The notes under the pieces: generated by a model
Database searches by the model: none
Told to the model about the DNA's origin: nothing
What the model saw: only the letters and a program-made list of their open reading frames with translations
Source: a virus
Strand: one strand, 5' to 3'
Virus record (IMG/VR): IMGVR_UViG_3300046804_000671
Coordinates: 1 to 55,271 of that record
Length of the DNA stretch: 55,271 nt
Shown here: piece after piece, positions 35,625 through 55,098 of the stretch
Layout of the letters: every line of letters begins with the position of its first letter
How positions within the stretch are numbered: position 1 is the first letter of the stretch
Made by a program: the position numbers and the translations under genes

Positions 35625-35811
35625 GACCTCCAGCAATCAGAAGCATCTGGAAGACGTTGCCATGTGACTCGGAGTTGATGGAGTACGCCATCTCACCATC
35701 CTTTGTCAAGGCAATAACAACGAACTCCTCGTATTCTTCCTTCAGCCTGTCGATAACACTGGAGGGAATCTTGCCAGACTTCTTGCTCATCTTAACAACG
35801 TTGTCGCTCAC
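35593..35811 (-). CDS. Conserved small phage protein (MSDNVV type)
   Basis: Start GTG 35811 with GGAGGG 4-5 bases before it gives a 72-residue protein beginning MSDNVVKMSKKSGK, a common phage small-protein opening. Helix ERLKEEYEEF-like and a beta hairpin follow. The longer frame from 35838 lies within the upstream gene. Confidence 0.6.
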   Translation of the reverse strand: MSDNVVKMSKKSGKIPSSVIDRLKEEYEEFVVIALTKDGEMAYSINSESHGNVFQMLLIAGGHVYKDQFSAS

Positions 35812-35812
35812 A

Positions 35813-36052: not shown

Positions 36053-36068
36053 GTCAGACTCCAGCAAT

Positions 36069-36145
36069 TGGCGTGCCCGACTGGACTTGAACCAGTAACC
36101 CTCAGCTTAGAAGGCTGATGCTCTTTCCAGTTGAGCTACGGGCAC
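36069..36145 (-). tRNA. tRNA-Arg (TCT)
   Basis: Acceptor GTGCCCG/CGGGCAC, D-arm GCTC/GAGC, anticodon loop CTTCTAA (anticodon TCT), T-loop TTCAAGT and encoded GCCA. Confidence 0.94.
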
Positions 36146-36153
36146 TAGACAAT

Positions 36154-36228
36154 TGGTGCTGGGTGAGGGATTCGAACCCCCAACCTTGGCCTTACAAAGA
36201 CCCTGCACTACCGTTGTGCTAACCCAGC
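36154..36228 (-). tRNA. tRNA-Thr (TGT)
   Basis: Acceptor GCTGGGT/ACCCAGC is perfect, D-arm GCAC/GTGC, anticodon loop TTTGTAA (anticodon TGT), T-loop TTCGAAT and encoded ACCA. The anticodon stem has a G-A mismatch at its outer pair. The stop of the upstream DUF3310 gene lies in its 5' acceptor. Confidence 0.88.
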
Positions 36229-41286: not shown

Positions 41287-41303
41287 TTCCCAACTGTTGG
41301 GAG
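41287..41303. repeat. Palindrome TTCCCAACtGTTGGGAg over a ribosome-binding site
   Basis: This copy of the dispersed 8-1-8 palindrome has one terminal mismatch. Its right half supplies the GGGAG Shine-Dalgarno for the gene at 41311, so a protein bound to DNA or a hairpin in RNA would affect that gene. Confidence 0.75.
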
Positions 41304-41310
41304 ACGCAGA

Positions 41311-41475
41311 ATGAAGCAAAGTGCTGAGGCTATCCAGAAGCGGATTGACTTTCTCAGGAACTCTGGTAGACCAGTACCTCTTATCCTTGAGACTAGGCTA
41401 TTCAGGATTAATTCTGGGAAGAAGCTGAAGCTTCCTTCCTTCTCAAGGAAAGGTTTCGTAAAGGATAAAAGATGA
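41311..41475 (+). CDS. 54-residue basic protein
   Basis: A frame from ATG 41311 encodes MKQSAEAIQKRIDFLRNSGR followed by a Lys-rich C-terminus. Its Shine-Dalgarno is in the palindrome at 41287. Its stop overlaps the next start as ATGA. Function unknown. Confidence 0.6.
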   Translation: MKQSAEAIQKRIDFLRNSGRPVPLILETRLFRINSGKKLKLPSFSRKGFVKDKR

Positions 41476-41654
41476 ACCGTAGAAGCTTGTTCAGGATGAT
41501 CCCTGTTGCTCCGGTCGTTGGCGCATCAGCTATTATGTCAAGCGTCAAGCCGAAGCTTGATGTTAAGCTGCCTCAGGTTGGAGAGATGAACTGGGGTCAG
41601 ACTATCAACAAGGCCATCAGGGATATTCAGGAAGAGATCAACAAGAGGGGATGA
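41472..41654 (+). CDS. Small protein with Tat-like signal
   Basis: The 60-residue product begins MNRRSLFRMIPVAPVVGASA, with a twin-arginine pair, a hydrophobic stretch and AxA-like end, resembling a Tat signal peptide. A short helical remainder follows. Export in the host is possible; purpose is unknown. Overlap with the primase gene indicates coupling. Confidence 0.55.
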   Translation: MNRRSLFRMIPVAPVVGASAIMSSVKPKLDVKLPQVGEMNWGQTINKAIRDIQEEINKRG

Positions 41655-43366
41655 TGAATTCTATTTCATCCCTGTTCAGGAGATACGGAAACAAGATACA
41701 GTTCAAGACTGTATGCCCGTTCTGTTCCGAACTAAGGAAGCCATCGAATAGGAAAGCTGCCTGCATGTCAGTGAGACAGGAGGCAGATCACTGGGTTTAC
41801 AATTGCTGGCACTGCTCAGCAAAGGGAAGAGAGGAAAAAATGGAAGCTGCTGCTGTCGTTGCACCGGTCAAGACTTCAAGCCTTGAGGACAAGCATTATG
41901 ATTTCTTTAAGTCTCGCGGCATCACACGCGATACTGTTGATAACTATTCTGTTACTGCATCCACTCAATGGATTCGGAGCGTTAACGGCAATACTGATTG
42001 CGTTGGCTTTGCATATCGCAACAATGGGGTACCTTATGCATATAAGTGGAGAGCTGTCGAAGCTAAGGGCTTCACCTGCTCTGCTGCTCCTCAGCACTTC
42101 TATCTTCATGATCGAGTGTCTGTTGGCAGTGATGTTGTGATCTGCGAGGGAGAGATCGACGCCCTGTCTCTCCGTCAAGCTGGTATCGAGAACGCCATCT
42201 CTGTTCCCAATGGCGCACCTATGAAGGTGTCAGAGGGTAAGGTTTCCCCTGAGGAAGACCGCAAGTTTGCCTACGTCTGGAACAGCCGGAACGTACTGAA
42301 CGCAGCGAAGAAGGTATACCTTGCCATCGACAACGACGATCCGGGTATGGCGCTTGGCGAGGAACTGAGCCGTCGCATCGGGCGCGCCAAGTGCTGGCTG
42401 GTGAAGTGGCCGGAAGGCTGCAAGGATGCCAACGATGTGCTGGTGAAGCACGGTCCTGAAGCCATTAAGGCTGCGCTGGAAGCGTCTGAACCGTGGCCGG
42501 TGGCTGGCCTGTTCGAAGCCAAGCACTACACCGAGAAGGTGGGAACCCTTTGGGAGAAGGGCAACGCCAAGGGTATGTCGGCTGGTTACGATGAGGTCGA
42601 TGAGATTTATTCTGTCGTGCCGGGACAGATGACAATCGTTACTGGCATCCCGTCTTCGGGTAAGTCAGAGTTCATCGATCAGGTTATGGTTAACCTTGCC
42701 CTGAAGAACGATCTCAAGTTTGCTATCTGTTCGTTTGAGAATCCGCCTGAAGCGCACATCGTCAAGCTGATTGAGAAGAAGGTTGGCAAGCCATTCTTCG
42801 CTGGACCCAAGCCTCGCATGACTGAACTGGAAAGAGACGGCGCATTGCAGTGGGTGAACAACCACTTCTCATTCATTGATACCAGTGATGGTGAACCGTC
42901 AACAATCGACTCGATCCTTGACAGAGCAAGTTCTGCTGTCATGCGTATGGGTATTCGTGGTCTGATCATCGACCCGTATAACTTCATCGAGCGTGACTTC
43001 AAGAACAGCGAGACTGATTACATCAGCGCCATGCTTACCAAGGTTCGTAACTGGGCGCGTGGTAACGAGGCGCATGTCTGGTTTGTTGCACACCCTGCCA
43101 AGATGATGCGTACTGATGGTAAGGTTCCCGTTCCGGGTGGCTACGACATCAGCGGATCGGCTGCTTGGTTCGCCAAGGCTGACTTCGGAATGACCGTTGA
43201 CCGACAGAAGGGGCCGCCTGAAGTCCACATCTGGAAGTGCCGGTTCAAGTGGGCGGGGAAGATGGGTAATGCCGTACTTAATTATGATCCTGCATCAGGC
43301 CGCTACATGTCTCCTAAGGATGTTCCGATTGAGGACTTCGGAAGCATCGATGAAGACGGCTTCTAA
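41651..43366 (+). CDS. Primase-helicase (T7 gp4/Twinkle-like)
   Basis: This 571-residue protein has a zinc ribbon (C22, C25, C52, C55), a Toprim domain (EGEID at 166-170, D227 and D229 in IDNDDPG) and a DnaB-like helicase with Walker A GIPSSGKS (332-339). It would prime and unwind at the phage fork. M1 (41651) and M2 (41654) are both possible. No phage DNA polymerase is visible nearby. Confidence 0.9.
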   Translation: MMNSISSLFRRYGNKIQFKTVCPFCSELRKPSNRKAACMSVRQEADHWVYNCWHCSAKGREEKMEAAAVVAPVKTSSLEDKHYDFFKSRGITRDTVDNYSVTASTQWIRSVNGNTDCVGFAYRNNGVPYAYKWRAVEAKGFTCSAAPQHFYLHDRVSVGSDVVICEGEIDALSLRQAGIENAISVPNGAPMKVSEGKVSPEEDRKFAYVWNSRNVLNAAKKVYLAIDNDDPGMALGEELSRRIGRAKCWLVKWPEGCKDANDVLVKHGPEAIKAALEASEPWPVAGLFEAKHYTEKVGTLWEKGNAKGMSAGYDEVDEIYSVVPGQMTIVTGIPSSGKSEFIDQVMVNLALKNDLKFAICSFENPPEAHIVKLIEKKVGKPFFAGPKPRMTELERDGALQWVNNHFSFIDTSDGEPSTIDSILDRASSAVMRMGIRGLIIDPYNFIERDFKNSETDYISAMLTKVRNWARGNEAHVWFVAHPAKMMRTDGKVPVPGGYDISGSAAWFAKADFGMTVDRQKGPPEVHIWKCRFKWAGKMGNAVLNYDPASGRYMSPKDVPIEDFGSIDEDGF

Positions 43367-43601
43367 GCTAACGCCTATGGTGTCTAGGGTCCTGTATGTA
43401 CACAGGAACCTAGGCCCCGGCTTCACCCATTTCGATAGCATGGATTGTCCATGCAGTCCAGTTCCTATTGATAGAGATTACAATGAAGAAGAATACAATC
43501 GATACCGGAACACCGGAGGGAATGAAGCACAAGAAGATGGTGGCGGTCCCCGCTCCGGGGCGGCCGGGGAAGATTCATCTGAGGGTGGTGGATCAGATTG
43601 A
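43350..43601 (+). CDS. Small Cys/His-containing phage protein
   Basis: An 83-residue frame starts at 43350 with GGAAG about 6 bases upstream. It has YVHRNLGPGFTHFDSMDCPCSP, then an acidic Gly-rich tail. The Cys/His set could bind metal. It overlaps the primase end and the next gene, so the tail may be partly a by-product of the overlap. Confidence 0.45.
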   Translation: MKTASKLTPMVSRVLYVHRNLGPGFTHFDSMDCPCSPVPIDRDYNEEEYNRYRNTGGNEAQEDGGGPRSGAAGEDSSEGGGSD

Positions 43602-43938
43602 ACTGGACCGCATGCTTGACAGGGGACAGATCACGCAGGACGAGTGGTCCTCTGGCGAGCAAGTCTACCGACTGCTCTACAAGGCAGGCATGCTCGGCGC
43701 TTCCAAGTCAACGCTCAATGTGTCGGGGAATAGTGGTGATCCTCAGCATATATCAGAGAAGAAGTCAGACTCTATTCTCATGCTGAGCCAGTTGATTGAT
43801 CACCTTGATATGTCTTGTGGGCGTGCTGCCCGCCGTGTCTTCATCGACATGCTGATGCTTGACCGGCCCGTCAAGACTGACGAACAGGTCAAGCAAGTGA
43901 AGCGTGCGTTGTCTGAGGTTGATAACGCATTCGGTTAA
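43483..43938 (+). CDS. DUF6456-like phage protein
   Basis: This 151-residue protein starts at 43483. It has ITQDEWSSGEQVYRLLYKAGML, resembling DUF6456 (often in alphaproteobacterial phages), and a helical C-terminus ending in RALSEVDNAFG. It is the last plus gene; its stop overlaps the minus-strand stop in TTAA. DNA binding is possible but unproven. Confidence 0.55.
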   Translation: MKKNTIDTGTPEGMKHKKMVAVPAPGRPGKIHLRVVDQIELDRMLDRGQITQDEWSSGEQVYRLLYKAGMLGASKSTLNVSGNSGDPQHISEKKSDSILMLSQLIDHLDMSCGRAARRVFIDMLMLDRPVKTDEQVKQVKRALSEVDNAFG

Positions 43939-44177
43939 AGCTTATCCATCACCAGCCTAGTGATCAGCCTGCGTGCCTGATCCCTATATCCAGCACCAAG
44001 TTCCTCATCATTTGCCATGTCAGTGATGAGGTTCCTTGCTTCAAGGAAAAACTCGTAATCTTTGTACGATATAACCTTTTGTGTAAGTTGTGCCTGATTC
44101 GCTGAGGTTAATGTGAATGTTCCTGAATTAGGAACGCTTATAGTATTTTGATACGGCTTGACGGCAGTCATCTTCAT
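43935..44177 (-). CDS. Unknown phage protein
   Basis: The 80-residue product starts at ATG 44177, overlapping the upstream stop as ATGA. The N-terminal half is Thr/Ser-rich and beta-like (SVPNSGTFTLTSANQAQ) and the rest is helical (YEFFLEARNLITDM). Function unknown. Confidence 0.55.
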   Translation of the reverse strand: MKMTAVKPYQNTISVPNSGTFTLTSANQAQLTQKVISYKDYEFFLEARNLITDMANDEELGAGYRDQARRLITRLVMDKL

Positions 44178-44710
44178 GCTTCCTTTCTTTGGTTGTTGTG
44201 GTCCCATTCCCATGACCATACTCCCTTCTTCGCGGCATCAACCAATCGCCTAATCTTTTCGTTCTCCATGTACTTGGCGAACGCTTCGCTTTCAGCTTCG
44301 TATCTGCTGAATGACTTCAGCATGTACATACATGACGTATGATCCTTGTTTAGCAAGGAAGCAATATCGGGAAACGACCTCTTGTTAAGAGTTCGCTCAA
44401 GATATGTGAAGATGGAACGCGCAACAGCCATGCTGTGGTACCTCTTGTGGGGCACGCGGAGATCATCAAGATTAAATCCGCTAGCCTCATTGATTGACTT
44501 TAGTATGTGCAAAGTAAGCTTGTAGTCTGCCCTGTCTTTCCATCTAGACATGAAGCTATCAGGATGGTGAGCAGTTCCCACAAACTTCTTGAGATTGATC
44601 ATCTTAGACATATCAATCTCATTGATTGACATCTTCTTATAAGAAGATCCAATATAATCTTGCTGGGTCTTTGAAAGCTTTCTAACAAGCACAGGATCAA
44701 GTGGCTCCAT
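44174..44710 (-). CDS. DnaA domain IV-like DNA-binding protein
   Basis: The 178-residue protein has at about 75-145 the layout of the DnaA C-terminal domain: LDDLRVPHKRYHSMAVARSI, a helical bridge, FPDIASLLNKDHTSCMYML, where KDHTS matches the GRDHTT signature. It lacks the AAA+ part of DnaA. It could bind DnaA-box-like sites in phage or host. Start 44710 has AAGGAG 7 bases before it. Confidence 0.65.
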   Translation of the reverse strand: MEPLDPVLVRKLSKTQQDYIGSSYKKMSINEIDMSKMINLKKFVGTAHHPDSFMSRWKDRADYKLTLHILKSINEASGFNLDDLRVPHKRYHSMAVARSIFTYLERTLNKRSFPDIASLLNKDHTSCMYMLKSFSRYEAESEAFAKYMENEKIRRLVDAAKKGVWSWEWDHNNQRKEA

Positions 44711-45155
44711 CGTGCTTCTCCTTCCACTTCTTTGCTCTATTGAGCGCATGTTTTGTTACGGGCCAAGACGGCCTATCTAAGTAGGCCAGTGCAATGTGCC
44801 TCAAATAATGAAGCTCTGCAAACTTATCGTTTCCTCTTTTCCTCCAGTAATCATACCTCATGTATGACCTTTTTATTTTTACCTCAATCCCAAAAGGAAA
44901 GTCCCTCCAATATGGAACGTGATCAGAAAGCCCCATCCCGTTTTCCATACTATCCAAATACAAAACATCTATATTGTATTTTTTCATTATGATGTCTGTT
45001 TCTTCCTTGGCCGCTGCCATATACTTATTAAGTCTCTTCCTTATTCCATCATGATATTCAGAAGATCGGTATAAATATACTCTGTATATATTGTACCAAT
45101 TAAAAGATTTTTTTACAGAATCAAGAGAGTCTATCTCTTTGTAAGCGTCTTTCAT
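44697..45155 (-). CDS. Unknown phage protein
   Basis: The 152-residue protein starts at 45155 with AGGAGA upstream. It is rich in Tyr, Lys and Arg with WYNIYRVYLYRSSEYHDGI. It overlaps the DnaA-like gene by 14 bases. No family recognised. Confidence 0.6.
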   Translation of the reverse strand: MKDAYKEIDSLDSVKKSFNWYNIYRVYLYRSSEYHDGIRKRLNKYMAAAKEETDIIMKKYNIDVLYLDSMENGMGLSDHVPYWRDFPFGIEVKIKRSYMRYDYWRKRGNDKFAELHYLRHIALAYLDRPSWPVTKHALNRAKKWKEKHDGAT

Positions 45156-45176
45156 AATTGATCTCCTGTATAACAG

Positions 45177-45644
45177 TTATACATTCCACCAGTCAGGTTG
45201 TCCGTTCTTCCAAGTAGCAAATCCAGTCTTTTCCCCAAGGTAGTAGTTCCTATACGCAACAACTGCATCTTTGTTCTTGTATTCATCAGGCATAGCCTGA
45301 GCAAACGGGGTTAGTCCAACATCAGGCATACGCTTTACAGCATGCCATGCTGCATTGATACCAATATCCACGCTCTTGTGTACCTTGCCATACCGTGCAG
45401 TATACTCCCTTCCAAGGGCAACAAGCAACGCAGCAAGCCATCGTGTGTTGGCGGCAGACTGCCTGACCCATACAGAACATGGGTGGTTGATGTGCGTTGT
45501 CTTGTAACCAACACGATCATTAAGCACGCCGTTTGCTGTAGTAGATAATAGCTGAGCGTACTCAAGACACATCTTAACAACATGCTTGTCGCAGTGGTAC
45601 GCGGCAGCCTTGTTGATGTCTTTGTCTAGAACAAAGATGTTCAT
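45177..45644 (-). CDS. Conserved phage protein (HCDKHVVKM type)
   Basis: The 155-residue protein begins MNIFVLDKDINKAAAYHCDKHVVKM and contains HPCSVWVRQS. This pattern is familiar in a marine-phage family of unknown function. Conserved His/Cys/Asp residues suggest a metal site or enzyme. GGAGG precedes the ATG. Confidence 0.65.
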   Translation of the reverse strand: MNIFVLDKDINKAAAYHCDKHVVKMCLEYAQLLSTTANGVLNDRVGYKTTHINHPCSVWVRQSAANTRWLAALLVALGREYTARYGKVHKSVDIGINAAWHAVKRMPDVGLTPFAQAMPDEYKNKDAVVAYRNYYLGEKTGFATWKNGQPDWWNV

Positions 45645-45653
45645 ATATACCTC

Positions 45654-46109
45654 CTACAACTTCTTCTTGAAGAACACAGCAGCCTTCTCACTAGTCTCAA
45701 CAGTGGGCCACTCATCCTTTCCACAAACACTGTATCCACAGGCGATCAGGTTATTCATGGAATAGTGGTTGTTAACGTGTGCTGTAGTAACCGAGATAAG
45801 AACACCTCGATCCTTCATGTTGCGTTCGCGGAAGCGGATCATGTGTCGCTGGAACTCCATGCCCCTCCACTTGGGAAGAACGCCAGCCCTGCACAGTTCA
45901 CCAACCTGACCGTTGACGTTGCGCCATCCAGAATATCCTACATACTTACCATCGTATTCCAATAGATACCAGTTTGCACCTTCGAATTCGAACGGTTCGT
46001 ATTCAGGAAAGCAGATGGCATCCATCCACCTTAACCAGCGTCCACCATCGGAATCATGTTCATGTACTGATTCCATGTATTTGAGATCGCCGTCCTCATT
46101 AATGCTCAT
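45654..46109 (-). CDS. GNAT-family acetyltransferase
   Basis: This 151-residue protein has the GNAT core: WYLLEYDGKYVGYSGW, then LCRAGVLPKWRGMEFQRHM with the acetyl-CoA loop, and a late helix. Substrate is unknown. It overlaps the Gp88-like gene end by about 11 bases. Confidence 0.75.
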   Translation of the reverse strand: MSINEDGDLKYMESVHEHDSDGGRWLRWMDAICFPEYEPFEFEGANWYLLEYDGKYVGYSGWRNVNGQVGELCRAGVLPKWRGMEFQRHMIRFRERNMKDRGVLISVTTAHVNNHYSMNNLIACGYSVCGKDEWPTVETSEKAAVFFKKKL

Positions 46110-46740
46110 GATAGTTCACTCCTTTGATCTTGTTGTTCCAGCACTGGTCACAGCCAAGGCATTTGTTGCCTTGGTCTGGAGCCTTACATTGCTTAAGCCA
46201 CTTACTCTTTGCGTCTACAGTGGAGAACGGAAGACGGTGTGTCTTCTTGAATGTAGCACCAACCATTGGATTAGATTGGCGTACAGTAAGATTGAATGAG
46301 AAGTCTCCGTGCTTCTTCATCCATGCTGCAACGATGCCTGCCTCCTTGGTAGGAAGCCAGTGACGTACAGTCGGTGTTGCCTTTGCTATGTTGTTGATCT
46401 TGGTCAGGTGTTCTTCAGACTGAATGTCTCCGCTGTCAAACCACCTGAACCTGTTCTCTCCTTCCTTGCTCCTCGCCCATAGATCAGTAAGTACAACAAT
46501 GAAAGCATCCTCAAACCTTGGATCATCCATTGCCTTGAGCCTGCGATCAAGAGCCTTGCGTACAACAGGCATGTTGTAGAAACCCTTGAGTGCATAACAG
46601 TTATGGCAGACAGTTCCGTGAGTCTGAGCCAACACAGATCCCGTCTTGCATGCGGTGGCGGGAATTGAGTAGGACCACCAAGGCATCTTGGATGGCTTAC
46701 TCAATCCGCCAATAAGTTCCCATGCTTCCTTGAATTGCAT
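46099..46740 (-). CDS. Gp88-like Cys-rich phage protein
   Basis: The 213-residue protein has C31 (ACKTG), C45 and C48 (CHNCYA), RWFDSGDIQSEEHL and a C-terminal CLGCDQCW cluster. It resembles the Gp88 group of phage proteins, whose Cys spacing could hold an Fe-S cluster. Start 46740 overlaps the upstream stop as TGATG, with GGAGG before it. Confidence 0.6.
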   Translation of the reverse strand: MQFKEAWELIGGLSKPSKMPWWSYSIPATACKTGSVLAQTHGTVCHNCYALKGFYNMPVVRKALDRRLKAMDDPRFEDAFIVVLTDLWARSKEGENRFRWFDSGDIQSEEHLTKINNIAKATPTVRHWLPTKEAGIVAAWMKKHGDFSFNLTVRQSNPMVGATFKKTHRLPFSTVDAKSKWLKQCKAPDQGNKCLGCDQCWNNKIKGVNYHEH

Positions 46741-47441
46741 CACGAACCTCCAATCCTAGACGCAATCTTGCGACCGATAGCACGCCGCATACCGTTAGCA
46801 CACAGCCTGTAGTCTGTATGGTAATAGGTGATGCCGCTGTTGCTATCCTTCATGATGTAGCAGTCCATACTCTTGTACTTCTTCGACCCATTGTTATAGG
46901 AGTAGGTGAAGTAACAAGCGGACCAGCACTTGTATGTGTCGTGATGGTGCGTCCTAGACCAAACAAGAACCTTGTTGGTACCGAGAGAGCCAATCTCCTT
47001 GATGTGATTGCTGTACATCATTGGCACAACAAACTTCTTCAGTCCTCCAGTTTCAGTATAGAAAACACCACACCCATCAGCCGTGGTGTTTACCTCTACA
47101 AGCCAAGGCGTGGAGTTGCTGATCTTGCTGTTGAGTTCTGAAAGCATAGACCTCTTGGCTTGGTTCTTCTTTGCGTCCATCTTTGATACAGACTTGCTTT
47201 CGTTAAAGATTTCACGAAGTTGAAGGACGGCATCCAAGGCGCCACACCTGTGTCCGATATACGAAGTGGTTGTTTTGCCAAGTTCATAGAACAACTTGTT
47301 CATGATGTTGGACTTGTCGGTGATGCCACGGTCACGGGCAAGCTTGAACATGCCAGACGCAGCGGCTGCAATCTTGCGTGCCTCAAGCTTGAACTTCTCT
47401 TTGAAGTACTTGTCGTCTGTCTTAACCCTATTATCGGACAT
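46740..47441 (-). CDS. Unknown phage protein
   Basis: The 233-residue protein starts at 47441 (TGAGG upstream). It has a helical N-terminal part (ARKIAAAASGMFKLARDRG), then a Tyr/His/Cys-rich beta part (WSRTHHHDTYKCWSACYF). It overlaps the VWA gene by 11 bases and may belong to that cassette. No family recognised. Confidence 0.6.
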   Translation of the reverse strand: MSDNRVKTDDKYFKEKFKLEARKIAAAASGMFKLARDRGITDKSNIMNKLFYELGKTTTSYIGHRCGALDAVLQLREIFNESKSVSKMDAKKNQAKRSMLSELNSKISNSTPWLVEVNTTADGCGVFYTETGGLKKFVVPMMYSNHIKEIGSLGTNKVLVWSRTHHHDTYKCWSACYFTYSYNNGSKKYKSMDCYIMKDSNSGITYYHTDYRLCANGMRRAIGRKIASRIGGS

Positions 47442-48576
47442 TGATAACCTCACCAAACGGAGCGGTGTTGATGTCGGAAGTGGACACCCAGATCACGGGG
47501 TAATGAGGCGGCGCGTCAGGAAACGAACCGTACATATCCGTGAAGTATACGAGAGCCTGAGGAGATACACCGTTATCCTCAGTCCACTTGAATGCGGGGC
47601 GGAAGTCAGTGCCTCCACCGCCACGGGGACGGGCGACGATCTCATCGCCAGCTTCGAATGTATCGACACCGGAAACTTCCGAGTCGATATACAGGATGTG
47701 AACCTTCTCCGGAATAACCTCCTCTGCAATTGCTGCAAGCTCTGAGAAAAACGTGGTCAGTTCCTTCTTGCCGATGGACCCGGACGTATCGATACCGACA
47801 ACGATCTCACCGGCACCTTCACGCAGGATGGACGGGGCGTAGATACCCTCACCCTCAAGGCGACGATTGAACCGACGCCAAGTGTAGTCAACGGGATACA
47901 TACCAGTGACAACGGCACGCAGCTTCTCACGCCAATCAACCTGAGGCTTGAGCAGCTTGTCGATGAAACGCTCCATGTTGGCAGGCATCTTGCCCTGTTT
48001 CTTGGCGACAGCTACCGCATTGGAAATGGTAGACTTCATGTCAGCCTCCATGACTTTCATCTCGGACTCTGACAGTTCCTGTCCGTTCTTGTCGGTCGGC
48101 TTCATTACCTGACCCCACGGACCCTTGCCTTCCTCGCCGTCACCACTGCCACCACCCTGCGGAGGAGGAGGGGGAGGGTTCTTCATAAGATCATCGTAGA
48201 TATCTTCGAAGGTCCAGTTGGCGTACTTGGGATCGTTACACCCACCAGCAGGAAGGGTATAGCGTTCGCAGATAGTGGGATTGATAGCGTAATCCATAGC
48301 AATGTTGGCGGGCAGATGCTCACGCTTACCGAGGCGCAGCATATGGAGCAACGCAACATGCATGGCTTCATGCACAATGACACCAAGCAACTCGTCGTCA
48401 GTGAGTCCTTGGACAAACTGACTATTGTAATACAAGTTGTTGCCATCAGTTGCCATCGTATCGGTATGCGCTTCGACAACCTCCCAGCGCATACAGATTA
48501 CGCCGAAGAACGGATCGTCAAGGACAAGCTTGATGCGTGCCTTGGCAATACGATCATGAACACTGAGCGTAGACAT
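47431..48576 (-). CDS. Zincin-like plus VWA protein (DUF2201-type)
   Basis: This 381-residue protein has an N-terminal HEAMH (69-73) in VIVHEAMHVALLH, a Pro/Gly-rich linker (about 134-150), and a C-terminal VWA domain with MIDAS D263-T-S-G-S, T323 and D347. This is the putative metallopeptidase-VWA pairing associated with MoxR ATPases. It lies with the MoxR gene at 50033 and a coiled-coil gene at 48983. Confidence 0.8.
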   Translation of the reverse strand: MSTLSVHDRIAKARIKLVLDDPFFGVICMRWEVVEAHTDTMATDGNNLYYNSQFVQGLTDDELLGVIVHEAMHVALLHMLRLGKREHLPANIAMDYAINPTICERYTLPAGGCNDPKYANWTFEDIYDDLMKNPPPPPPQGGGSGDGEEGKGPWGQVMKPTDKNGQELSESEMKVMEADMKSTISNAVAVAKKQGKMPANMERFIDKLLKPQVDWREKLRAVVTGMYPVDYTWRRFNRRLEGEGIYAPSILREGAGEIVVGIDTSGSIGKKELTTFFSELAAIAEEVIPEKVHILYIDSEVSGVDTFEAGDEIVARPRGGGGTDFRPAFKWTEDNGVSPQALVYFTDMYGSFPDAPPHYPVIWVSTSDINTAPFGEVINVR

Positions 48577-48585
48577 TGATGCCTC

Positions 48586-48654
48586 CTAACCTATAGCAAT
48601 GAAAAAGAAAGCTATCAACACAAAGAAGATAGCACCGATGATTAGTCCATCCAT
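48586..48654 (-). CDS. 22-residue membrane microprotein
   Basis: A very short frame with GGGAG upstream encodes MDGLIIGAIFFVLIAFFFIA, an almost entirely hydrophobic peptide. It lies between the VWA gene and a basic protein and may target the cassette to the membrane. Coding status rests on the ribosome-binding site and tight packing. Confidence 0.45.
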   Translation of the reverse strand: MDGLIIGAIFFVLIAFFFIAIG

Positions 48655-48655
48655 A

Positions 48656-48817
48656 TCATTCTCCCTTTTTAAGAAGGGACTTCACGAACCTCCTTACTCT
48701 CTTGCGGAACCCGCGCTTGATCTTCTTGCGAGTTCCAGACTTGAACCTGAAATACTTACGCCATCCAGAGAGGGCGTCATACTCGCCGCCCCCTCTCATA
48801 GGTATCTCACCTTTCAT
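48656..48817 (-). CDS. 53-residue basic protein
   Basis: The frame from 48817 (AGGAG 6 bases upstream) encodes MKGEIPMRGGGEYDALSG, then a strongly basic C-terminus (KKIKRGFRKRVRRFVKSL). It could bind nucleic acid or acidic membranes. It overlaps the preceding gene's stop. Confidence 0.5.
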   Translation of the reverse strand: MKGEIPMRGGGEYDALSGWRKYFRFKSGTRKKIKRGFRKRVRRFVKSLLKKGE

Positions 48818-48980
48818 TGGCGACTCCTGTATAGTTGTCAGCTTGTACCGTTTCACTGCCCATGACACGAACATCTAGCAATAACAGAACAGTACCTTGT
48901 ATGGCCTGCGGTGTCTGCATGTATCCAAGCAGAGTTTCCTCACCATCGCCCGTTGCTGACGCGGCTGCGGGAGGAGGCAT
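48807..48980 (-). CDS. 57-residue protein in the MoxR cassette
   Basis: A frame from ATG 48980 encodes MPPPAAASATGDGEETLLGY and then GTVLLLLDVRVMGSET, a beta-like domain. It begins 2 bases after the upstream stop and overlaps the next start. No clear Shine-Dalgarno is visible, so it may rely on coupling. Confidence 0.45.
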   Translation of the reverse strand: MPPPAAASATGDGEETLLGYMQTPQAIQGTVLLLLDVRVMGSETVQADNYTGVANER

Positions 48981-48982
48981 TG

Positions 48983-49840
48983 CTAGATGTAGGCGGACAC
49001 CTTGTTCAGAATATCACGCGCAGTCTGAGCGGCGGCGATGCGGCTGCTCTGGTTCTCGCGCAGATCATCAGATGTAATGGTGGCAAGGTCATGCTTGATC
49101 TGCATGGCAATGCCGTCAATGTCAGGATTGTTGGTGATGTTAAGCTTGGGCAGAATGTCAGCGAGGTCACTGATGTTGCTCATCATGGACTCACGGATAC
49201 CCTTGCCATCGTTGGCTTCCACCTCCTTGAGACGCTTGAGCATGTGTTCCATACGCATGGACACACGCTGAAACACATCACGCACAGCGTTGTCCTGTGC
49301 CTCCGAAAGATTCTGTTCGATCTCCTGCTTGGTGGATTGGAACTCCGACTCAGACAGGGAGACACGGAAGTCATTGGAGTCAGGCAGATTGAACACACGC
49401 ACATTGAAGGCATGCTTGCGGCGGATGCTTTCCGCGCTCGGGTAATCAGACTCCTTGAACAGACCATTGAGATCGAGGCGAGCCTGCTTGACCAGAGCAT
49501 CATACTCCACAAGCAACTTCTCCACAGCCTGATTGAACTGGCTGCGGTACTCAGACATACGCTGCACATATTCCAGATAGATATCCACGGGGATGATGCG
49601 GATACCATCGTTAAGCCAAGGCAGGGTGACGCTCATGGTATAGTTACGAGCGTTGCCTGCGATGCTGGTGATATCCTTAAGAGAGATAGGGTTCACCAGA
49701 ATCTTGTTGAAGCGACCGGCGCGAGAGGCGTCGGTGCCGTGGTTCTGTGCAACTTCAGCGGTCGCATCCTTGTCGTACTTGCGCCCCGACCAAGCAGAGA
49801 TCGAGAGAGCAACGAGCATAGCCTTTTCACTGATATTCAT
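48983..49840 (-). CDS. DUF3150-like coiled-coil protein
   Basis: This 285-residue protein has a small N-terminal domain with AWSGRKYDKDATAEV and a helical rest. The stretch about 90-230 (EKLLVEYDALVKQARLDLNG, MRMEHMLKRLKEVEAND) is coiled-coil-like. It resembles DUF3150 proteins, often found with MoxR ATPases in phages. It may bridge the ATPase and VWA protein. Assignment is from memory of the family pattern. Confidence 0.6.
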   Translation of the reverse strand: MNISEKAMLVALSISAWSGRKYDKDATAEVAQNHGTDASRAGRFNKILVNPISLKDITSIAGNARNYTMSVTLPWLNDGIRIIPVDIYLEYVQRMSEYRSQFNQAVEKLLVEYDALVKQARLDLNGLFKESDYPSAESIRRKHAFNVRVFNLPDSNDFRVSLSESEFQSTKQEIEQNLSEAQDNAVRDVFQRVSMRMEHMLKRLKEVEANDGKGIRESMMSNISDLADILPKLNITNNPDIDGIAMQIKHDLATITSDDLRENQSSRIAAAQTARDILNKVSAYI

Positions 49841-49849
49841 GACAACCTC

Positions 49850-50023
49850 CTAGATGTTACGAAACAGACCGGCCCAATACATAAGGGCGAAAGACAAGAC
49901 AGTCGAGAAGAACGACACATAGAAATTGTATCGTATCGCAGGTTTGGGTGTGTCATGCAAGATGATTACAGACACAAGGTTGACGGTCCATAGGGCGATG
50001 ATCGCCCACTCACCGTAGTTCAT
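49850..50023 (-). CDS. 57-residue two-pass membrane protein
   Basis: The frame from 50023, after GGAGG, encodes MNYGEWAIIALWTVNLVSVI, a loop (HDTPKPAIRYN) and a second hydrophobic segment. It sits between MoxR and the DUF3150-like gene and may anchor the machine to the membrane. Confidence 0.6.
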   Translation of the reverse strand: MNYGEWAIIALWTVNLVSVIILHDTPKPAIRYNFYVSFFSTVLSFALMYWAGLFRNI

Positions 50024-50032
50024 GATGCCTCC

Positions 50033-51049
50033 TTACAGGATCACGTTAGAGAAGGACACGGCCAGATCGATACCAGCCTTGGTCTTCATAAGGTTGGGAT
50101 TACGAGCCTGCATTTCCTTGAGGCAGGAGACGCAGTACTCCTTCTTCTTGAACTCGTCGCTGGAGATACGATTGAGGATGCGACGAACCACATCCATGTT
50201 GCGTGGAGTGGCGTGGTTAGCGACCGCACCCATCAACGCATAGATGGTAGCAGGATCGTTGGCAATACGGACACCCTCAGGATTGTCGAAGATATCCTTG
50301 ATAAGAGGCAGACCAGACGCGATCTTCATGAAACCGTAGAACTCGTTGGTCACACCCTCGCCGTTCAGACCAGTGACCAATGCGCGCTCAGCGTACTGAG
50401 GCAGACCAATGGACAGAACGTCGGACACCTTCTCCCAAGTACGCGGAGAGGCGTTGGCGTACTGAGACGCATCGAACATAGACAGATGATCGGGACGCCA
50501 CTCAAGGTATGCGGTGATCATTGGATTGATATCCCTGCTACCGCAATACGCACGGAAGTCATCACGGTCAGCGACCATCTCGACATGGGCGAGACGATTA
50601 CGAAGATGCGTAGGCATCTCAAATGTACCGGCCTTGTGTTGACGCATGTTGCCAGACAGAACGATGGCAGTGCTATCGGGAAGCTTATGCTCACCAAGCA
50701 CACGATCATGAACGATACGAGACGCAATGTTCTGCATCATCATGACAGCCTGAGGCACCTCGTCCAGATGGAGAAGGGTAGGACGATCCGACTCCTCGAT
50801 CTTACGGATGATATCGCTACGAGACAGACGCATCTCTATACCGTCACGGTAACAATGACCGACAACATCAGGCGCCTCACGCTCAGCGAGGATGACCTGA
50901 ATATAGTTGTAACCTTCCTCCTCTGCGGACTGACCGGCGACCGCAGTCTTGCCGATACCCGGAGCGCCCCAGACCATGGGCACGATGGATTTGCGGCGCA
51001 TGGCGGCCTTGGTAATGTCCTTAATTTCGGTCGGCTTAAGCTTAAGCAT
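50033..51049 (-). CDS. MoxR-family AAA+ ATPase
   Basis: The 338-residue protein has Walker A GAPGIGKT (28-35), Walker B LLHLDE (92-97), a sensor-1-like SGNM (Asn 134) and LRNRLAH (149-155). This is the MoxR/RavA-type motor that works with VWA partners to remodel target proteins. In this cassette the likely partners are the zincin-VWA and DUF3150-like proteins. Confidence 0.85.
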   Translation of the reverse strand: MLKLKPTEIKDITKAAMRRKSIVPMVWGAPGIGKTAVAGQSAEEEGYNYIQVILAEREAPDVVGHCYRDGIEMRLSRSDIIRKIEESDRPTLLHLDEVPQAVMMMQNIASRIVHDRVLGEHKLPDSTAIVLSGNMRQHKAGTFEMPTHLRNRLAHVEMVADRDDFRAYCGSRDINPMITAYLEWRPDHLSMFDASQYANASPRTWEKVSDVLSIGLPQYAERALVTGLNGEGVTNEFYGFMKIASGLPLIKDIFDNPEGVRIANDPATIYALMGAVANHATPRNMDVVRRILNRISSDEFKKKEYCVSCLKEMQARNPNLMKTKAGIDLAVSFSNVIL

Positions 51050-51050
51050 G

Positions 51051-51548
51051 TCATTTGTCCTTGAAGTTGATGATGACAGGATCGTTGAGGTTTACTTCCA
51101 TCTCGTCAAGAGACTTGTAGTGGAAGTACTGCTCGATGCTACTCTGGTATACGTAGAACTCCTCTGGTTTGCATTCTAGGAATTGCTCTGGGCTGTTGTA
51201 CTTGACGCTGTACCTGTTGCCCTTCTCTCCGCTGATATACGGATCACCTACGTGTCCTTCGTTCTGAATCCTAACCATGGCTAGAGCGCCAAGGATTTTA
51301 CTGTAAACATCAACATCTTTGATGAAGTTACCAATTATGTAACCCCTCCGTATAACTAGATACGGCATCTTGTTGTTGTGCCTCATTGACCTTGCGATCT
51401 GAGCGGGAACGCCTCCTCCCTTTATGATGCCTGTCTTTGCGTAGTTATAAAGCTTTTTCTTCTGCGAAGGACCGAACGAACTTACATCGACCTCCGCGTA
51501 TAGGTTCTTGAGGTGACTCATTACAGAGTCGGAGATATTGTATGACAT
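51051..51548 (-). CDS. Unknown phage protein
   Basis: The 165-residue protein begins at 51548 with GAGAGG upstream, overlapping the previous stop as TAATG. It has ARSMRHNNKMPYLVIRRGYI and a C-terminal acidic part. It is the gene next upstream of MoxR and could be a cassette member or substrate. No family recognised. Confidence 0.55.
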   Translation of the reverse strand: MSYNISDSVMSHLKNLYAEVDVSSFGPSQKKKLYNYAKTGIIKGGGVPAQIARSMRHNNKMPYLVIRRGYIIGNFIKDVDVYSKILGALAMVRIQNEGHVGDPYISGEKGNRYSVKYNSPEQFLECKPEEFYVYQSSIEQYFHYKSLDEMEVNLNDPVIINFKDK

Positions 51549-51778
51549 TACAGGCACCTCTCGATGTTGATGAGGCGGCGTGCTGCCCTGCGGTACACAC
51601 CGCCGATGAACCCACCCATGAGCGACAGTTCCTTCAGATCATCAATGATCCAGCGGAGAGCATCGCGCTCGCCCCGCTTGGCTGCCTGCCACACTCGCGG
51701 ATGTACTACACCACGGAAACGCATACGCTCAGAGTAACGTATGTCATGCTTGAAACTGCGGATGCTCTTGATCTGCAC
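51548..51778 (-). CDS. Unknown basic phage protein
   Basis: The 76-residue Arg-rich product starts at GTG 51778 with AGGAG 7 bases upstream. It has VHPRVWQAAKRGERDALRW and a helical end. Function unknown. Confidence 0.5.
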   Translation of the reverse strand: MQIKSIRSFKHDIRYSERMRFRGVVHPRVWQAAKRGERDALRWIIDDLKELSLMGGFIGGVYRRAARRLINIERCL

Positions 51779-51851
51779 CTCTCAACTCCTCTTCCCAACG
51801 GTTACGAACTACAACCAAAGGCACCATGTCTCTGGTCAACTTGCTAAGCAT
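51744..51851 (-). CDS. 35-residue reading frame, possibly leaderless
   Basis: A frame from ATG 51851 encodes MLSKLTRDMVPLVVVRNRWE and ends in the next gene. The promoter -10 lies 6 bases before it, so the mRNA would start at or beside the ATG. The frame carries a degenerate copy of the palindrome (51792-51808). It could be a leader peptide coupling to the GTG at 51778. Confidence 0.35.
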   Translation of the reverse strand: MLSKLTRDMVPLVVVRNRWEEELRGADQEHPQFQA

Positions 51852-51856
51852 ATACA

Positions 51857-51884
51857 ATTATAGCACCTCCATTCTTGGTGTCTA
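51857..51884 (-). promoter_or_regulatory. Sigma70 promoter for the MoxR cassette
   Basis: On the minus strand TAGACA (51879-51884) and TATAAT (51857-51862) are 16 bases apart, with TGC before the -10 (extended -10). It would drive the operon from 51851 toward the MoxR, DUF3150-like and VWA genes. Confidence 0.75.
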
Positions 51885-51908
51885 TAGTTCCAGGAAAATT
51901 TATCTTTA

Positions 51909-52094
51909 TCATCTCAGCTTTTGCACCACCCTTTCCGCTGTTAGTTCGTTGACCATAGTAGAAAGCCTGTCGTGGATGTTCGCCCAGTAGGCTGGTCCTT
52001 CAGGCGTTTCTTTCCAGACGAAGGCAGTCATCAGGTTGTCTCTGGTTTGAGCCAGAAGCTGAAAGCTCGCGTTTTCTCTCCACTTGTACATCAT
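51909..52094 (-). CDS. Unknown small phage protein
   Basis: The 61-residue product (MMYKWRENASFQLLAQTRDN) starts at 52094 or 52091, with GGAG upstream. It is helical with two Trp-containing segments. It follows a microprotein gene directly. Function unknown. Confidence 0.5.
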   Translation of the reverse strand: MMYKWRENASFQLLAQTRDNLMTAFVWKETPEGPAYWANIHDRLSTMVNELTAERVVQKLR

Positions 52095-52193
52095 TTACTC
52101 CATAAACAGAGTGATCATGAAGATCAGCATCAGGAACGTGTATCCCATGCAGAGATACAGTACCAGAGTCAGGCATTCCTTGATGATATCCAT
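52095..52193 (-). CDS. 32-residue membrane microprotein
   Basis: A short frame, GGAGG 6 bases upstream, encodes MDIIKECLTLVLYLCMGYTF and continues hydrophobic to the C-terminus. Single-pass peptide; role unknown. Confidence 0.5.
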   Translation of the reverse strand: MDIIKECLTLVLYLCMGYTFLMLIFMITLFME

Positions 52194-52221
52194 ATATTCC
52201 TCCTAGGTTTATGCCGTAAAC

Positions 52222-52458
52222 TCAGACGATGCGGACCTTGATGCCCTTCTGGATGCGGATAGTCACATCCGAGATGACACGCTCACGCTTGATGTGCGGA
52301 CGCTTGGACTTGATGCCGGAATCCATGTCGAGCGCGGATTCCATGACCATGCGGGTGATGCCCGCCATCGAGATTCCCGCCTTGAACGCCTCCTTACGCA
52401 GGCGATTGAACATGCGGGGAGGGAGGGTGTACCCAACGTAGCGATTGCTGTTCTTCAT
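52222..52458 (-). CDS. Ribbon-helix-helix-like DNA-binding protein
   Basis: Start 52458 (AGGAG 7 bases upstream) gives 78 residues with YVGYTLPPRMFNRLRKEAFK, then SMAGITRMVMESAL: a strand-helix-helix order like Arc/MetJ proteins. The C-terminus is basic. It is a candidate regulator of the palindromes nearby; the link is inference. The longer frame from 52665 lies in the next gene. Confidence 0.55.
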   Translation of the reverse strand: MKNSNRYVGYTLPPRMFNRLRKEAFKAGISMAGITRMVMESALDMDSGIKSKRPHIKRERVISDVTIRIQKGIKVRIV

Positions 52459-52468
52459 GACATATCTC

Positions 52469-52669
52469 CTAGTAGTCGTAGTCGATTGGTTCGTCGGTGT
52501 AGTAGTTGTCGTCTGTGAAAATATCGGTACGAAACCTGGATTTCTTAGCCTCCTCGCACTTGTTGCAGACATATCCAATGGGGATGCCGCGAGCATCGTA
52601 TGCCAGCCATGACACCCCATCGCTCTTTCTATGAGGGAACCTTTTGTCTCCGTTGCACTTCCCAACCAT
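52469..52669 (-). CDS. Small Cys-containing phage protein
   Basis: The 66-residue product has VCNKC plus an N-terminal Cys/His (KCNGDKRFPHRK), a possible zinc site, and an acidic Tyr-rich tail. AAAGGAG precedes the ATG, which lies inside a palindrome copy (52659-52675). Function unknown. Confidence 0.55.
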   Translation of the reverse strand: MVGKCNGDKRFPHRKSDGVSWLAYDARGIPIGYVCNKCEEAKKSRFRTDIFTDDNYYTDEPIDYDY

Positions 52670-52675
52670 TGGGAA
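52659..52675. repeat. Palindrome copy spanning a start codon
   Basis: TTCCCAACcaTTGGGAA has one mismatch to the dispersed palindrome. The complement of its centre holds the ATG of the 52469-52669 gene, so binding or RNA folding would block initiation. Confidence 0.7.
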
Positions 52676-53017
52676 CTACTCCTTTACAGGGGTTGGTTGA
52701 ATGTACGGGGTGAACGAGGTCCACTTCTTGACTCGCCACCCATGATCCTTGACCCAAAACGGAGCGCCGCCGCCGCTTCGCTTGGATTGACAGAAGGAGA
52801 ACATTGGACTGCCTCCCTTGCTGCCCTTGACGCCGAGGAACTCACGTAGAGCCTTGGCGCAGGGATCACCATACATTTCAGGGGTTTGCAGCAGAGACAC
52901 CACCATCGCGGCACCTCCCCTGCGATATGCGTGCAGGACCGTCAGCAGCGTCTTGTCATAGGCTTTGCCCATGTCAAGGCTGTAGATGTACCTGATCGCG
53001 TTAGGAACATCGCTCAT
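52676..53017 (-). CDS. Unknown phage protein
   Basis: The 113-residue protein starts at ATG 53017 (GGGA 9 bases upstream), following the stop at 53019. It has RYIYSLDMGKAYDKTLLTVL and a Gly/Ser-rich part (GSKGGSPMFSFCQSK). The GTG at 53047 is less likely. Function unknown. Confidence 0.55.
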   Translation of the reverse strand: MSDVPNAIRYIYSLDMGKAYDKTLLTVLHAYRRGGAAMVVSLLQTPEMYGDPCAKALREFLGVKGSKGGSPMFSFCQSKRSGGGAPFWVKDHGWRVKKWTSFTPYIQPTPVKE

Positions 53018-53018
53018 T

Positions 53019-53138
53019 TTAGCAATCCCAATAACAGGCGAAGTCACAGTCCACGAAGAAGAACAGGCTGATGTTGTGATCCACGTTCAGATTGGCAGCA
53101 TCATTCAGCCTGCGCCACACACTGGTATAAACCATCAT
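53019..53138 (-). CDS. 39-residue reading frame
   Basis: A frame from 53138 (or 53135) encodes MMVYTSVWRRLNDAANLNVD and a Phe/Cys-rich end (FFFVDCDFACYWDC). GGCGGTGAG lies upstream. It is the first gene of this minus-strand run and is tightly followed by the next. Coding is plausible, not proven. Confidence 0.4.
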   Translation of the reverse strand: MMVYTSVWRRLNDAANLNVDHNISLFFFVDCDFACYWDC

Positions 53139-53162
53139 GTCTCACCGCCTTCCAACTTGTGC

Positions 53163-53179
53163 TTCCCAACCGTTGGGAA
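53163..53179. repeat. Palindrome TTCCCAACcGTTGGGAA
   Basis: A perfect 8-1-8 palindrome in the leader of the minus-strand run starting at 53138. It is one of about seven dispersed copies. Confidence 0.8.
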
Positions 53180-53250
53180 GCTTCTCAACCGGAGCCTCGC
53201 TGCATTTGCGAGTTGCATTTCGTCCGATTGTTCTGTATTATCTCATGTTT

Positions 53251-53308
53251 TATGGTCTTTGTATATATGTCCAGGAAAAAACCTGGACATTTTGACCATA
53301 TATTTTTT
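53251..53308 (+). promoter_or_regulatory. Compound inverted repeat before the small terminase gene
   Basis: TATGGTC (53251-53257) pairs with GACCATA (53294-53300), enclosing ATGTCCAGG/CCTGGACAT (53267-53275 with 53282-53290) around an A6 loop. A T8 run follows on the plus strand at 53302-53309. It could be an intrinsic terminator or attenuator, an operator, or a packaging recognition site beside terS. Confidence 0.6.
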
Positions 53309-53343
53309 TTAACCTAGCGAACGCCTCGCTTTCAAGGTGCCAC

Positions 53344-53796
53344 ATGACCAAACACAAGATGACTATCAAGCAGGAAGACTTTGCAAGATTGGTAGGATAC
53401 GAGGGAGTATCCCAGATTGATGCCTACAGACAGGCATATAACCCAAAGACAAAGTCTCCCACTGCACTAGCCTCAATGGCATATAGATTGTCTATCCATC
53501 CCCTAGTGTCTCAGGCAATCACCAAGTACAGGGATCAGAGAGAACAGGACAAGAAGATTGATGCCGGTACGATTAGAGAACTCCTTCTGAATACCTTGAT
53601 TAGTAAGGTCAAGGAAGCCAAGACGGAATCCAATCAATTAAGGGCAGTGGAATTGCTGGGTAAGACGGAGGATATTGGATTGTTCAAGGAGAGAATTGAA
53701 ACAACGACAGTCAAGTCAAGCGATGATTTGGAAAAGGAATTGAGGGAAAAGTTACACAATCTATTTGGGAAGCCCAAGATTGTTGCAAGTAATTGA
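53344..53796 (+). CDS. Terminase small subunit
   Basis: The 150-residue protein has FARLVGYEGVSQIDAYRQAY, SPTALASMAYRLSIHPLVSQ and a helical C-terminus (LRAVELLGKTEDIGLF), matching the Terminase_2-like small subunits that bind the packaging site. AAGGTG precedes the ATG. The large subunit is not in this window. Confidence 0.8.
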   Translation: MTKHKMTIKQEDFARLVGYEGVSQIDAYRQAYNPKTKSPTALASMAYRLSIHPLVSQAITKYRDQREQDKKIDAGTIRELLLNTLISKVKEAKTESNQLRAVELLGKTEDIGLFKERIETTTVKSSDDLEKELREKLHNLFGKPKIVASN

Positions 53797-54015
53797 TTTG
53801 CCTAGAGATTAGGCAGATCGAGATTATTAGGATTTGTTTTTTATATCTGGTTTGATTGTGGTTGGTTAATGCCGGGAGATTGGGGGATTTTGGTAGGGGG
53901 ATTAGGATTTTGCAGGCAAACGATTTGATTTTTTTATAAAAACCACATCTCCAGGCCTTCCCAACCGTTGGGAAACTGCTATTGAGAATCATTCTCATTC
54001 CTGGACCTAGGCAAC
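53797..54015. other. Non-coding right-end segment
   Basis: No credible gene. It holds a TGCCTA/TAGGCA hairpin after terS, a G-rich stretch with three G3-5 runs (53874-53900), a perfect TTCCCAACcGTTGGGAA (53958-53974) and a TGAGAATCATTCTCA (53983-53997). Confidence 0.65.
53958..53997. repeat. Paired palindromes: TTCCCAAC type and Fur-box-like
   Basis: The two palindrome families sit 8 bases apart here, as they also do at 54844-54883 and 54905-54937. This repeated pairing suggests they work together. Confidence 0.8.
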
Positions 54016-54048
54016 AAAAAGCCCCCTAGACCTAAGCCTAGGGGGCTT
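54016..54048 (-). terminator. Intrinsic terminator for the 54053-54676 gene
   Basis: An 11-bp stem (54019-54029 with 54038-54048) is followed on the minus strand by TTTTT. It lies 4 bases past the stop codon of the minus-strand gene and may also stop plus-strand terS transcripts. Confidence 0.88.
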
Positions 54049-54052
54049 CCTG

Positions 54053-54676
54053 TTACTTCTTAAAGGTGATCACAACCGTGCCATGCTGGGCGCTGTAGAC
54101 CGCCTCGGCCTTCGCCTCGTGGGCCTGCCACAGCAGCAACTCGACAAGCTGGCTGTGACCGCCGGTTGCGGCGGGCGTTTCGGCCAGCGTGGCAATGTGG
54201 GGCCGGTTGTAGTTCATGACCTTGTCGAGCGCCGTTCCCGGCCCCTGTCCGCCCTTGCCCTTCGCCTTGGGCTTGTCAGACTTCTTTTCGGCGGCGTTCA
54301 CTGACTTAATCGATACGCTCGCGAGCGCCTCGCCCTTGCCTTCAATGTCAATCGCCTTGCGGGCGTTCGTGACATAGTTGGAAAGATACTTCTTTGCGCC
54401 CTTCTCATCCGTGCCGCGCTTCTCGGCGACCGCGTCCAGCAACGGGCGCATGGCAAGCTCGCGCTCGCGCCCCTCAACCGTGAGCTTGAAGATCGCCATG
54501 ATGGCGGCCGTAAGCCGCTCGCCGATCTTCGTATAGACGTCGAACGCGGTCGAGTGTTCCAAGAACACTGCGATGGCCGTATCCGACGCCGCCTTGATAG
54601 CAGCGGCACGGTCGACTGGCTTGGCATCCGCAACGGGGATGACCGGAGCAACCTTAGCCTTGATAACCTTTGCCAT
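54053..54676 (-). CDS. Unknown Ala/Lys-rich protein, GC-rich gene
   Basis: The 207-residue protein has an Ala/Val/Lys-rich N-terminus, a helical middle (about 25-120), a Lys/Gly-rich linker (KPKAKGKGGQGPG) and a short C-terminal domain. Its GC content is well above its neighbours, and it has its own terminator and an AGGAG 6 bases before the ATG. It may be a DNA-binding or moron-type gene of foreign origin. No family recognised. Confidence 0.6.
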   Translation of the reverse strand: MAKVIKAKVAPVIPVADAKPVDRAAAIKAASDTAIAVFLEHSTAFDVYTKIGERLTAAIMAIFKLTVEGRERELAMRPLLDAVAEKRGTDEKGAKKYLSNYVTNARKAIDIEGKGEALASVSIKSVNAAEKKSDKPKAKGKGGQGPGTALDKVMNYNRPHIATLAETPAATGGHSQLVELLLWQAHEAKAEAVYSAQHGTVVITFKK

Positions 54677-54843
54677 TTGACACTCCTAATGGCTCCCATG
54701 CAAAAAAAACCCGTTCCACGCGCGGGGAGCCAGCGCGGGCAGATGGGGTTTCAGACGATGCATAGAGCGGTCGGCGAATGGAACCGACACGCACACAGTA
54801 CAGGTACCAGCGGCACGGTCAAGGGGGGCTGTGGATTTTTTCC
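54677..54843. other. Non-coding segment upstream of the GC-rich gene
   Basis: No gene is supported. On the minus strand TTGACC is followed 16 bases later by TACTGT, a weak promoter candidate for the 54053-54676 gene. TGTGGATTT near 54834 resembles a DnaA box with two mismatches. Confidence 0.45.
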
Positions 54844-55098
54844 TTCCCAACGGTTGGGAAAAAGTTAATGCGAATCATTCGCAACCTGGAGTCCAGGATG
54901 CAATTGAGAATCATTCTCACTTCCCAACGGTTGGGAAACTGCAATTGATAATCATTCGCAACTCGGCCGTTGATGCAAATGAGAATCATTCGCAACCCGT
55001 TGTCAGGTGCAATTGATAATCATTCGCATATAGATCCAAGATGCAATTGATAATCATTATCACCTGGAGATCCAGGATACGATTAAGAATCATTTGCA
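54844..55098. repeat. Tandem array of Fur-box-like palindromes with two TTCCCAAC palindromes
   Basis: Seven 15-bp units of the form TGAnAATCATTnnCA start at 54869, 54905, 54946, 54980, 55014, 55048 and 55084. The spacing is 36, 41, 34, 34, 34 and 36. The unit at 55048 is TGATAATCATTATCA, an exact 7-1-7 Fur-box form; 54869 and 54905 are also perfect palindromes. TTCCCAACgGTTGGGAA lies at 54844 and 54921. Two spacers are CCTGGA..TCCAGG palindromes. It may be a regulator array, an origin or a decoy. Confidence 0.85.

Follow-up and report, generated by a model that had tools for sequence, protein, structure and literature searches.

Networks of dispersed operators are best known from temperate phages of actinobacteria. 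In Streptomyces, a repressor encoded by phage phiC31 binds the conserved inverted repeats (CIR), palindromic operators about 17 bp long that are scattered over the phage genome. The operators of the global regulator KorB of plasmid RK2 are likewise scattered palindromes, each centred on a single unpaired base. Two papers describe the stoperators of the Cluster A mycobacteriophages L5 and Bxb1, and of the Streptomyces phage R4, as many short genome-wide sites, few of them at promoters, with a consensus that differs by lineage (PMC6550527, PMC10276819). Similarly, a paper on the Cluster K phages reports start-associated sequences (SAS), repeated words placed just ahead of start codons, and extended start-associated sequences (ESAS), 17-bp inverted repeats whose left copy is better conserved (PMC3203893). 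Here we describe a 55,271-base IMG/VR virus record (IMGVR_UViG_3300046804_000671; the window, that is, the whole stretch of DNA analysed) in which the palindrome TTCCCAACnGTTGGGAA occurs seven times. We read its copies as sites of a dispersed operator or roadblock network, similar to the stoperators of mycobacteriophages, with a regulator particular to the lineage.

A first-pass annotation had picked out this palindrome, listing seven copies, four of them perfect 8-1-8 palindromes and one degenerate. All seven coordinates were correct on rescan, each copy having zero to two mismatches:

41287-41303, plus strand: copy with one mismatch, between a methyltransferase-like gene (stop 41279) and a small open reading frame (ORF; ATG 41311); its arm lies 7 bp ahead of that ATG, and the copy lies 347 bp ahead of the primase/helicase gene
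51792-51808, minus strand: degenerate copy with two mismatches, in the leader of the predicted promoter cassette P2, 13 bp ahead of the GTG at 51778 (ORF 51548-51778)
52659-52675, minus strand: copy with one mismatch that fills a gene junction; it contains the start codon of the minus-strand ORF 52469-52669 and adjoins the stop codon of 52676-53047
53163-53179, minus strand: perfect copy, in the leader of the predicted promoter cassette P1, 24 bp ahead of the ATG at 53138 (ORF 53019-53138)
53958-53974, no strand assigned: perfect copy, 161 bp past the terminase small subunit gene (terS), with a Fur-like box 8 bp on
54844-54860, no strand assigned: perfect copy, with a Fur-like box 8 bp on
54921-54937, no strand assigned: perfect copy within the Fur-like array, with a Fur-like box 8 bp on

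The number of copies is not random. At up to three mismatches, 100 dinucleotide shuffles gave a mean of 0.25 sites per window and a maximum of two. The window holds no eighth site with fewer than four mismatches, and its single four-mismatch site, at position 10966, compares with about 2.4 sites expected by chance at up to four. The word is also not enriched elsewhere, as 257 Gb of genomes from bacteria and archaea hold its exact form at 59 loci, against an arithmetic expectation of about 60 (257e9/4^16, for 16 fixed bases). Across 85,000 bacterial genomes its frequency was likewise near chance, as it was in IMG/VR, where 15 viral contigs hold one exact copy apiece. Among 274 genomes of one class, three carried the word with one mismatch allowed, and each of them only once. 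Seven bacterial or archaeal loci (L022, L027, L028, L037, L044, L065 and L067) hold two to four copies at up to three mismatches, in local clusters or tandems. With such chance-level counts in bacteria and in viruses, we rejected the view that the word is a widespread repeat or an obvious repeat of the host.

The relatives of the window carry different words in a comparable layout. A search with the primase recovered Synechococcus phage MinM2, 14 loci in IMG/VR with identities of 35-48% and another three with 22%. We scanned 25 records for palindrome families, requiring each record to have its own family above shuffles, and accepted families in 10: the window, MinM2, G001-G004, L080, L082, L084 and G010. 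The palindrome-bearing relatives are phages that have the window's primase and virion genes in common. L080-L085 are close relatives and were counted as one lineage; G002-G004, L080, L082 and L084 are related. Five motif types were found, namely TTCCCAACnGTTGGGAA of the window, CGGTTCAGnCTGAACCG of MinM2, AAGTTCAnnTGAACTT, AAGTTRAnnTYAACTT and YTAGGACnGTCCTAR. The cross-table of motif by record is close to diagonal; the exception is the two AT-rich words, which are alike.

Placement is best resolved in MinM2, for which we used the deposited genes because our in-house gene caller, which is crude, disagrees with the deposited annotation. The MinM2 genome has 33 sites of CGGTTCAGnCTGAACCG at up to two mismatches, against none in shuffles. 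Eighteen of the 33 are intergenic, a compartment that makes up 7.9% of the genome (p = 4e-12), and 16 have a start codon at most 30 bp downstream, a position that covers 5.0% of the genome (p = 7e-13). In the leftward region, eight of 19 sites lie exactly 20-21 bp ahead of a start. A stop codon often directly precedes a copy, and the remaining sites include positions inside genes, among them the very large virion gene. On informal comparison, MinM2, the L080-L085 group and G010/G011 resemble the window in having a site upstream of the primase gene. Three of the four other motif types have such a copy; G001 has none within 400 bp upstream of primase. The window, G001 and G010 all have a site past terS. 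Because several records are fragments, a missing site says little. G011 and G010 have in common two TTAGGACnGTCCTAA-type sites ahead of primase. Four records (G011, G013, G016 and HTVC027P) were marginal and not accepted, and the motif checked in G011, G013 and G016 lies mostly inside genes. L080, L082, L083 and L084 also repeat a second palindrome near primase, CTAGTTATAACTAG, which is possibly origin-related.

These patterns share two traits with stoperators: many sites of one consensus beyond chance (seven in the window, 33 in MinM2), and lineages with different consensus sequences. With SAS and ESAS they share repeated words right before start codons. However, SAS are non-palindromic and contain AGGAG no more than a few bases from the start, and ESAS have 17-bp arms around a 4-13-bp spacer, whereas here the whole palindrome spans 15-18 bp and also occurs away from gene starts. 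SAS and ESAS are restricted to the starts of non-structural genes; MinM2 sites also lie inside virion genes. The likeness to the phiC31 CIR operators consists in dispersed palindromes of about 17 bp. The KorB operators of RK2 differ in sequence, and no KorB-like protein was found here. Full spellings of six palindromes had no match in the papers searched, no literature on sites in MinM2 or Pag-Yong1 was found, and the main text of the DSL-LC04 paper does not contain the string 'palindrom' (PMC10611076).

We put the probability at about one half that the palindromes are dispersed operators of one sequence-specific dimeric regulator whose specificity and sites have changed in each lineage. In such a scheme, one dimeric regulator would bind palindromes spread across the phage genome. 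Transcription would be turned on or off from the sites in control regions, namely those ahead of primase, near terS and in the leaders of the predicted leftward promoters, and sites at gene junctions inside operons could act as roadblocks or silencing sites in the manner of stoperators. As the specificity of the regulator shifted between lineages, the sites would shift along, leaving each lineage with its own palindrome at comparable places. The sites, their number and placement, the lineage-specific sequences and the lack of RNA-pair covariation in MinM2 are observed; the regulator protein, any repression by it and the roadblock step are what we infer. The first-pass annotation had proposed a regulatory role because several copies overlap a Shine-Dalgarno sequence, a start codon or a leader. 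Placement, rarity elsewhere and the comparable layout of relatives with other sequences speak for that role, and the interpretation as a whole is partly supported.

Several observations weigh against this scheme of dispersed operators. No regulator common to the palindrome-bearing phages was found, and Pfam recognised no repressor or integrase among 56 MinM2 and 33 window proteins, whereas stoperators belong to a known repressor of temperate phages. Eleven of the 25 records have no family above shuffles, many of them being fragments. The in-house gene caller puts only a minority of G001-G004 sites near starts. Further, the arm asymmetry tracks the genome strand, with zero left-arm and four right-arm mismatches in the window and 25 and 11 in MinM2, a pattern that a plain symmetric operator leaves unexplained; stoperators, by comparison, are 13 bp long, asymmetric and aligned with transcription. 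In the window, CTTCCCAAC and the preceding C, read on the plus strand, are unchanged in all seven copies (the probability of a uniform flank column anywhere among 12 is 0.003). Finally, sites pooled from the AAGTTRA group and G001, a set that mixes lineages and related copies, pair at 176 of 210 positions against 166 when shuffled, a value reached by 0.1% of shuffles, and, in RNA, hairpins formed by the 52659 and 41287 copies would mask a start codon or Shine-Dalgarno sequence.

The last two points are shared with the idea of control at the RNA level, in which mRNA hairpins would hide the Shine-Dalgarno sequence or start codon, or mark mRNA processing between genes. Three copies (41287, 51792 and 52659) lie over or next to a ribosome-binding site or start, and the 52659 copy folds as RNA into a hairpin of -15.1 kcal/mol (z = -3.0). 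However, the 51792 copy has no fold (z = +0.9), and MinM2 arms oriented by transcription pair at 289 of 363 positions against a shuffled mean of 297. MinM2 thus shows no RNA-pair covariation; its half-sites are symmetric without covarying pairwise. Copies also sit in non-coding DNA by the Fur-like boxes and inside virion genes. Taken together, the missing covariation, the location of copies inside genes and in non-coding DNA and the unfolded 51792 copy favour recognition as DNA, by a DNA-binding protein, and we regard RNA-level control as unlikely, although an added RNA effect may exist at 52659 and 41287. The hairpin that the first-pass annotation had foreseen for every copy therefore stands for some copies and fails for 51792. 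It is similarly improbable that the palindromes are sites of a host transcription factor, through which the phage would read host physiology or soak up host regulators. A host factor would fit the constant 8-bp spacing to the Fur-like boxes and the lack of a conserved phage regulator. But the word occurs at most once per genome among the 274 genomes at up to one mismatch (the host may not be among them, and genuine sites could depart from the consensus), its count in bacterial and archaeal genomes is at chance, and the intragenic and junction sites of MinM2 do not resemble promoter input.

Another DNA-level explanation, many scattered partition or clamp-loading sites from which a ParB/KorB-type protein would spread, is suggested by the dispersed odd-length palindromes and their likeness to the RK2 KorB operators, and by a single bacterial element. 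Among 299 genomes drawn from a phylum, one (G404) has exact copies of the MinM2 word; its mobile element (L182-L184; C3 805001-865000) carries the word four times within 20 kb at zero or one mismatch, one of them inside a parB-like gene. This element encodes ParA, a ParB-like protein similar to the plasmid ParB family, and an AcaB-type regulator. However, its proteins have no match in the 25 phage records, two related regions of the integrative and conjugative element type lack the MinM2 word, and the early proteins scanned in MinM2 and in the window, whose record is probably partial, yielded no recognisable ParA or ParB domain. We therefore consider partition or clamp loading quite unlikely. 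Selfish or recombination-linker repeats spread among gene junctions appear highly improbable. The frequent position of MinM2 copies directly past a stop codon, and the presence of the window word in two alike promoter-leader cassettes, are what such repeats could produce, but comparable positions occupied by different words across lineages, and copies inside genes, point to a positional function.

If the copies are operators, one candidate regulator lies within the window, the protein suggested as a binder in the first-pass annotation:

52222-52458, minus strand: ribbon-helix-helix-like protein of 78 aa, candidate regulator

Its structure model is weak (pLDDT, the predicted local distance difference test score, of 63) and its best solved match is Arc (E = 0.55). 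Searches of Pfam and PHROG and by phage tblastn gave no match for the protein, which occurs in none of the relatives compared. A second window protein (44174-44749) has a DnaA-type helix-turn-helix (HTH) DNA-binding domain, and one MinM2 protein carries an AlpA-type HTH by Pfam.

The copies at the right end of the window were also said to pair with Fur-like sites, and all three (53958, 54844 and 54921) do, at the constant spacing of 8 bp:

53983-55098, no strand assigned: eight Fur-like 7-1-7 boxes, at 53983, 54869, 54905, 54946, 54980, 55014, 55048 and 55084

One of these boxes is an exact match to the Fur-box consensus. The array occupies mostly non-coding DNA past terS, and none comparable was seen in the 24 other records scanned. 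Since the 53958 and 54921 copies have flanking sequence in common, duplication of a unit may lie behind part of the constant spacing. A 207-aa gene (54053-54676) is sandwiched by palindrome and Fur-like sites; it had no PHROG, phage or IMG/VR match and a sub-threshold Pfam match. A still wider picture, in which a mostly uncultivated podovirus-like clade maintains a genome-wide regulator network on palindromes, with sequence turnover at fixed places (primase, terS and early gene starts), possibly through a ParB/KorB-like clamp, and in which the network of the window is wired to an iron-sensing Fur-like array, is speculative and rather doubtful.

The significance of the network lies in at least five sequence-divergent versions with a comparable layout, in an environmental phage clade without recognised lysogeny genes. 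If the proposed scheme is true, the clade would offer a natural series in which to study joint change in a regulator and the whole set of its sites. The palindrome words could further serve as a signature for grouping uncultivated phages, and, if they are coupled to the Fur-like boxes, the response of a phage to host iron becomes testable.

The genes and predicted promoters around the sites are as follows:

41651-43366, plus strand: primase/helicase gene, with a palindrome upstream of its orthologue in several relatives
51857-51898, minus strand: predicted leftward promoter P2, resembling P1, with a TTTTCCTGGA box and TAGACA-16-TATAAT with TG
53237-53279, minus strand: predicted leftward promoter P1, by consensus match only, with a TTTTCCTGGA box and TATACA-17-GATAAT with TG
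53344-53796, plus strand: terS

Sigma-70-like promoter matches in the window are no commoner than in shuffles; the TTTTCCTGGA box with its adjoining bases occurs only twice in the window. The 51792 and 53163 copies occupy the two alike cassettes of P2 and P1, about 42-51 nt downstream of the estimated transcription start. A perfect TGTCCAGG-6-CCTGGACA inverted repeat adjoins P1. Other window genes encode a head protein, a virion stabilisation-like protein, ribonucleotide reductase, dUTPase, an Erf-like annealing protein and an exonuclease. The scan of window proteins showed neither a terminase large subunit nor a portal, and the record therefore probably lacks part of the genome. The terS gene had no phage tblastn match, and queries with an ATPase gene (50033-51049) and the 54053-54676 gene found no nearer relatives.

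MinM2 and Pag-Yong1 (L096/L097, L141) are both 65,014 bp long and identical across the 5 kb compared. They were reported from different cyanobacteria, and a GC content of 69% casts doubt on those hosts. The record Pra-JY27 agrees with both in length and in match scores. The combination of hairpin-like sites with a virion protein of 2475 aa (22344-29771) in the window brought up hairpin promoters of the N4-type virion RNA polymerase as a possible reading. Such promoters were dropped, as Pfam shows an HSP90/histidine-kinase-like ATPase domain, and no polymerase, in that protein. Finally, five tRNA genes lie at 31823-36228 of the window.

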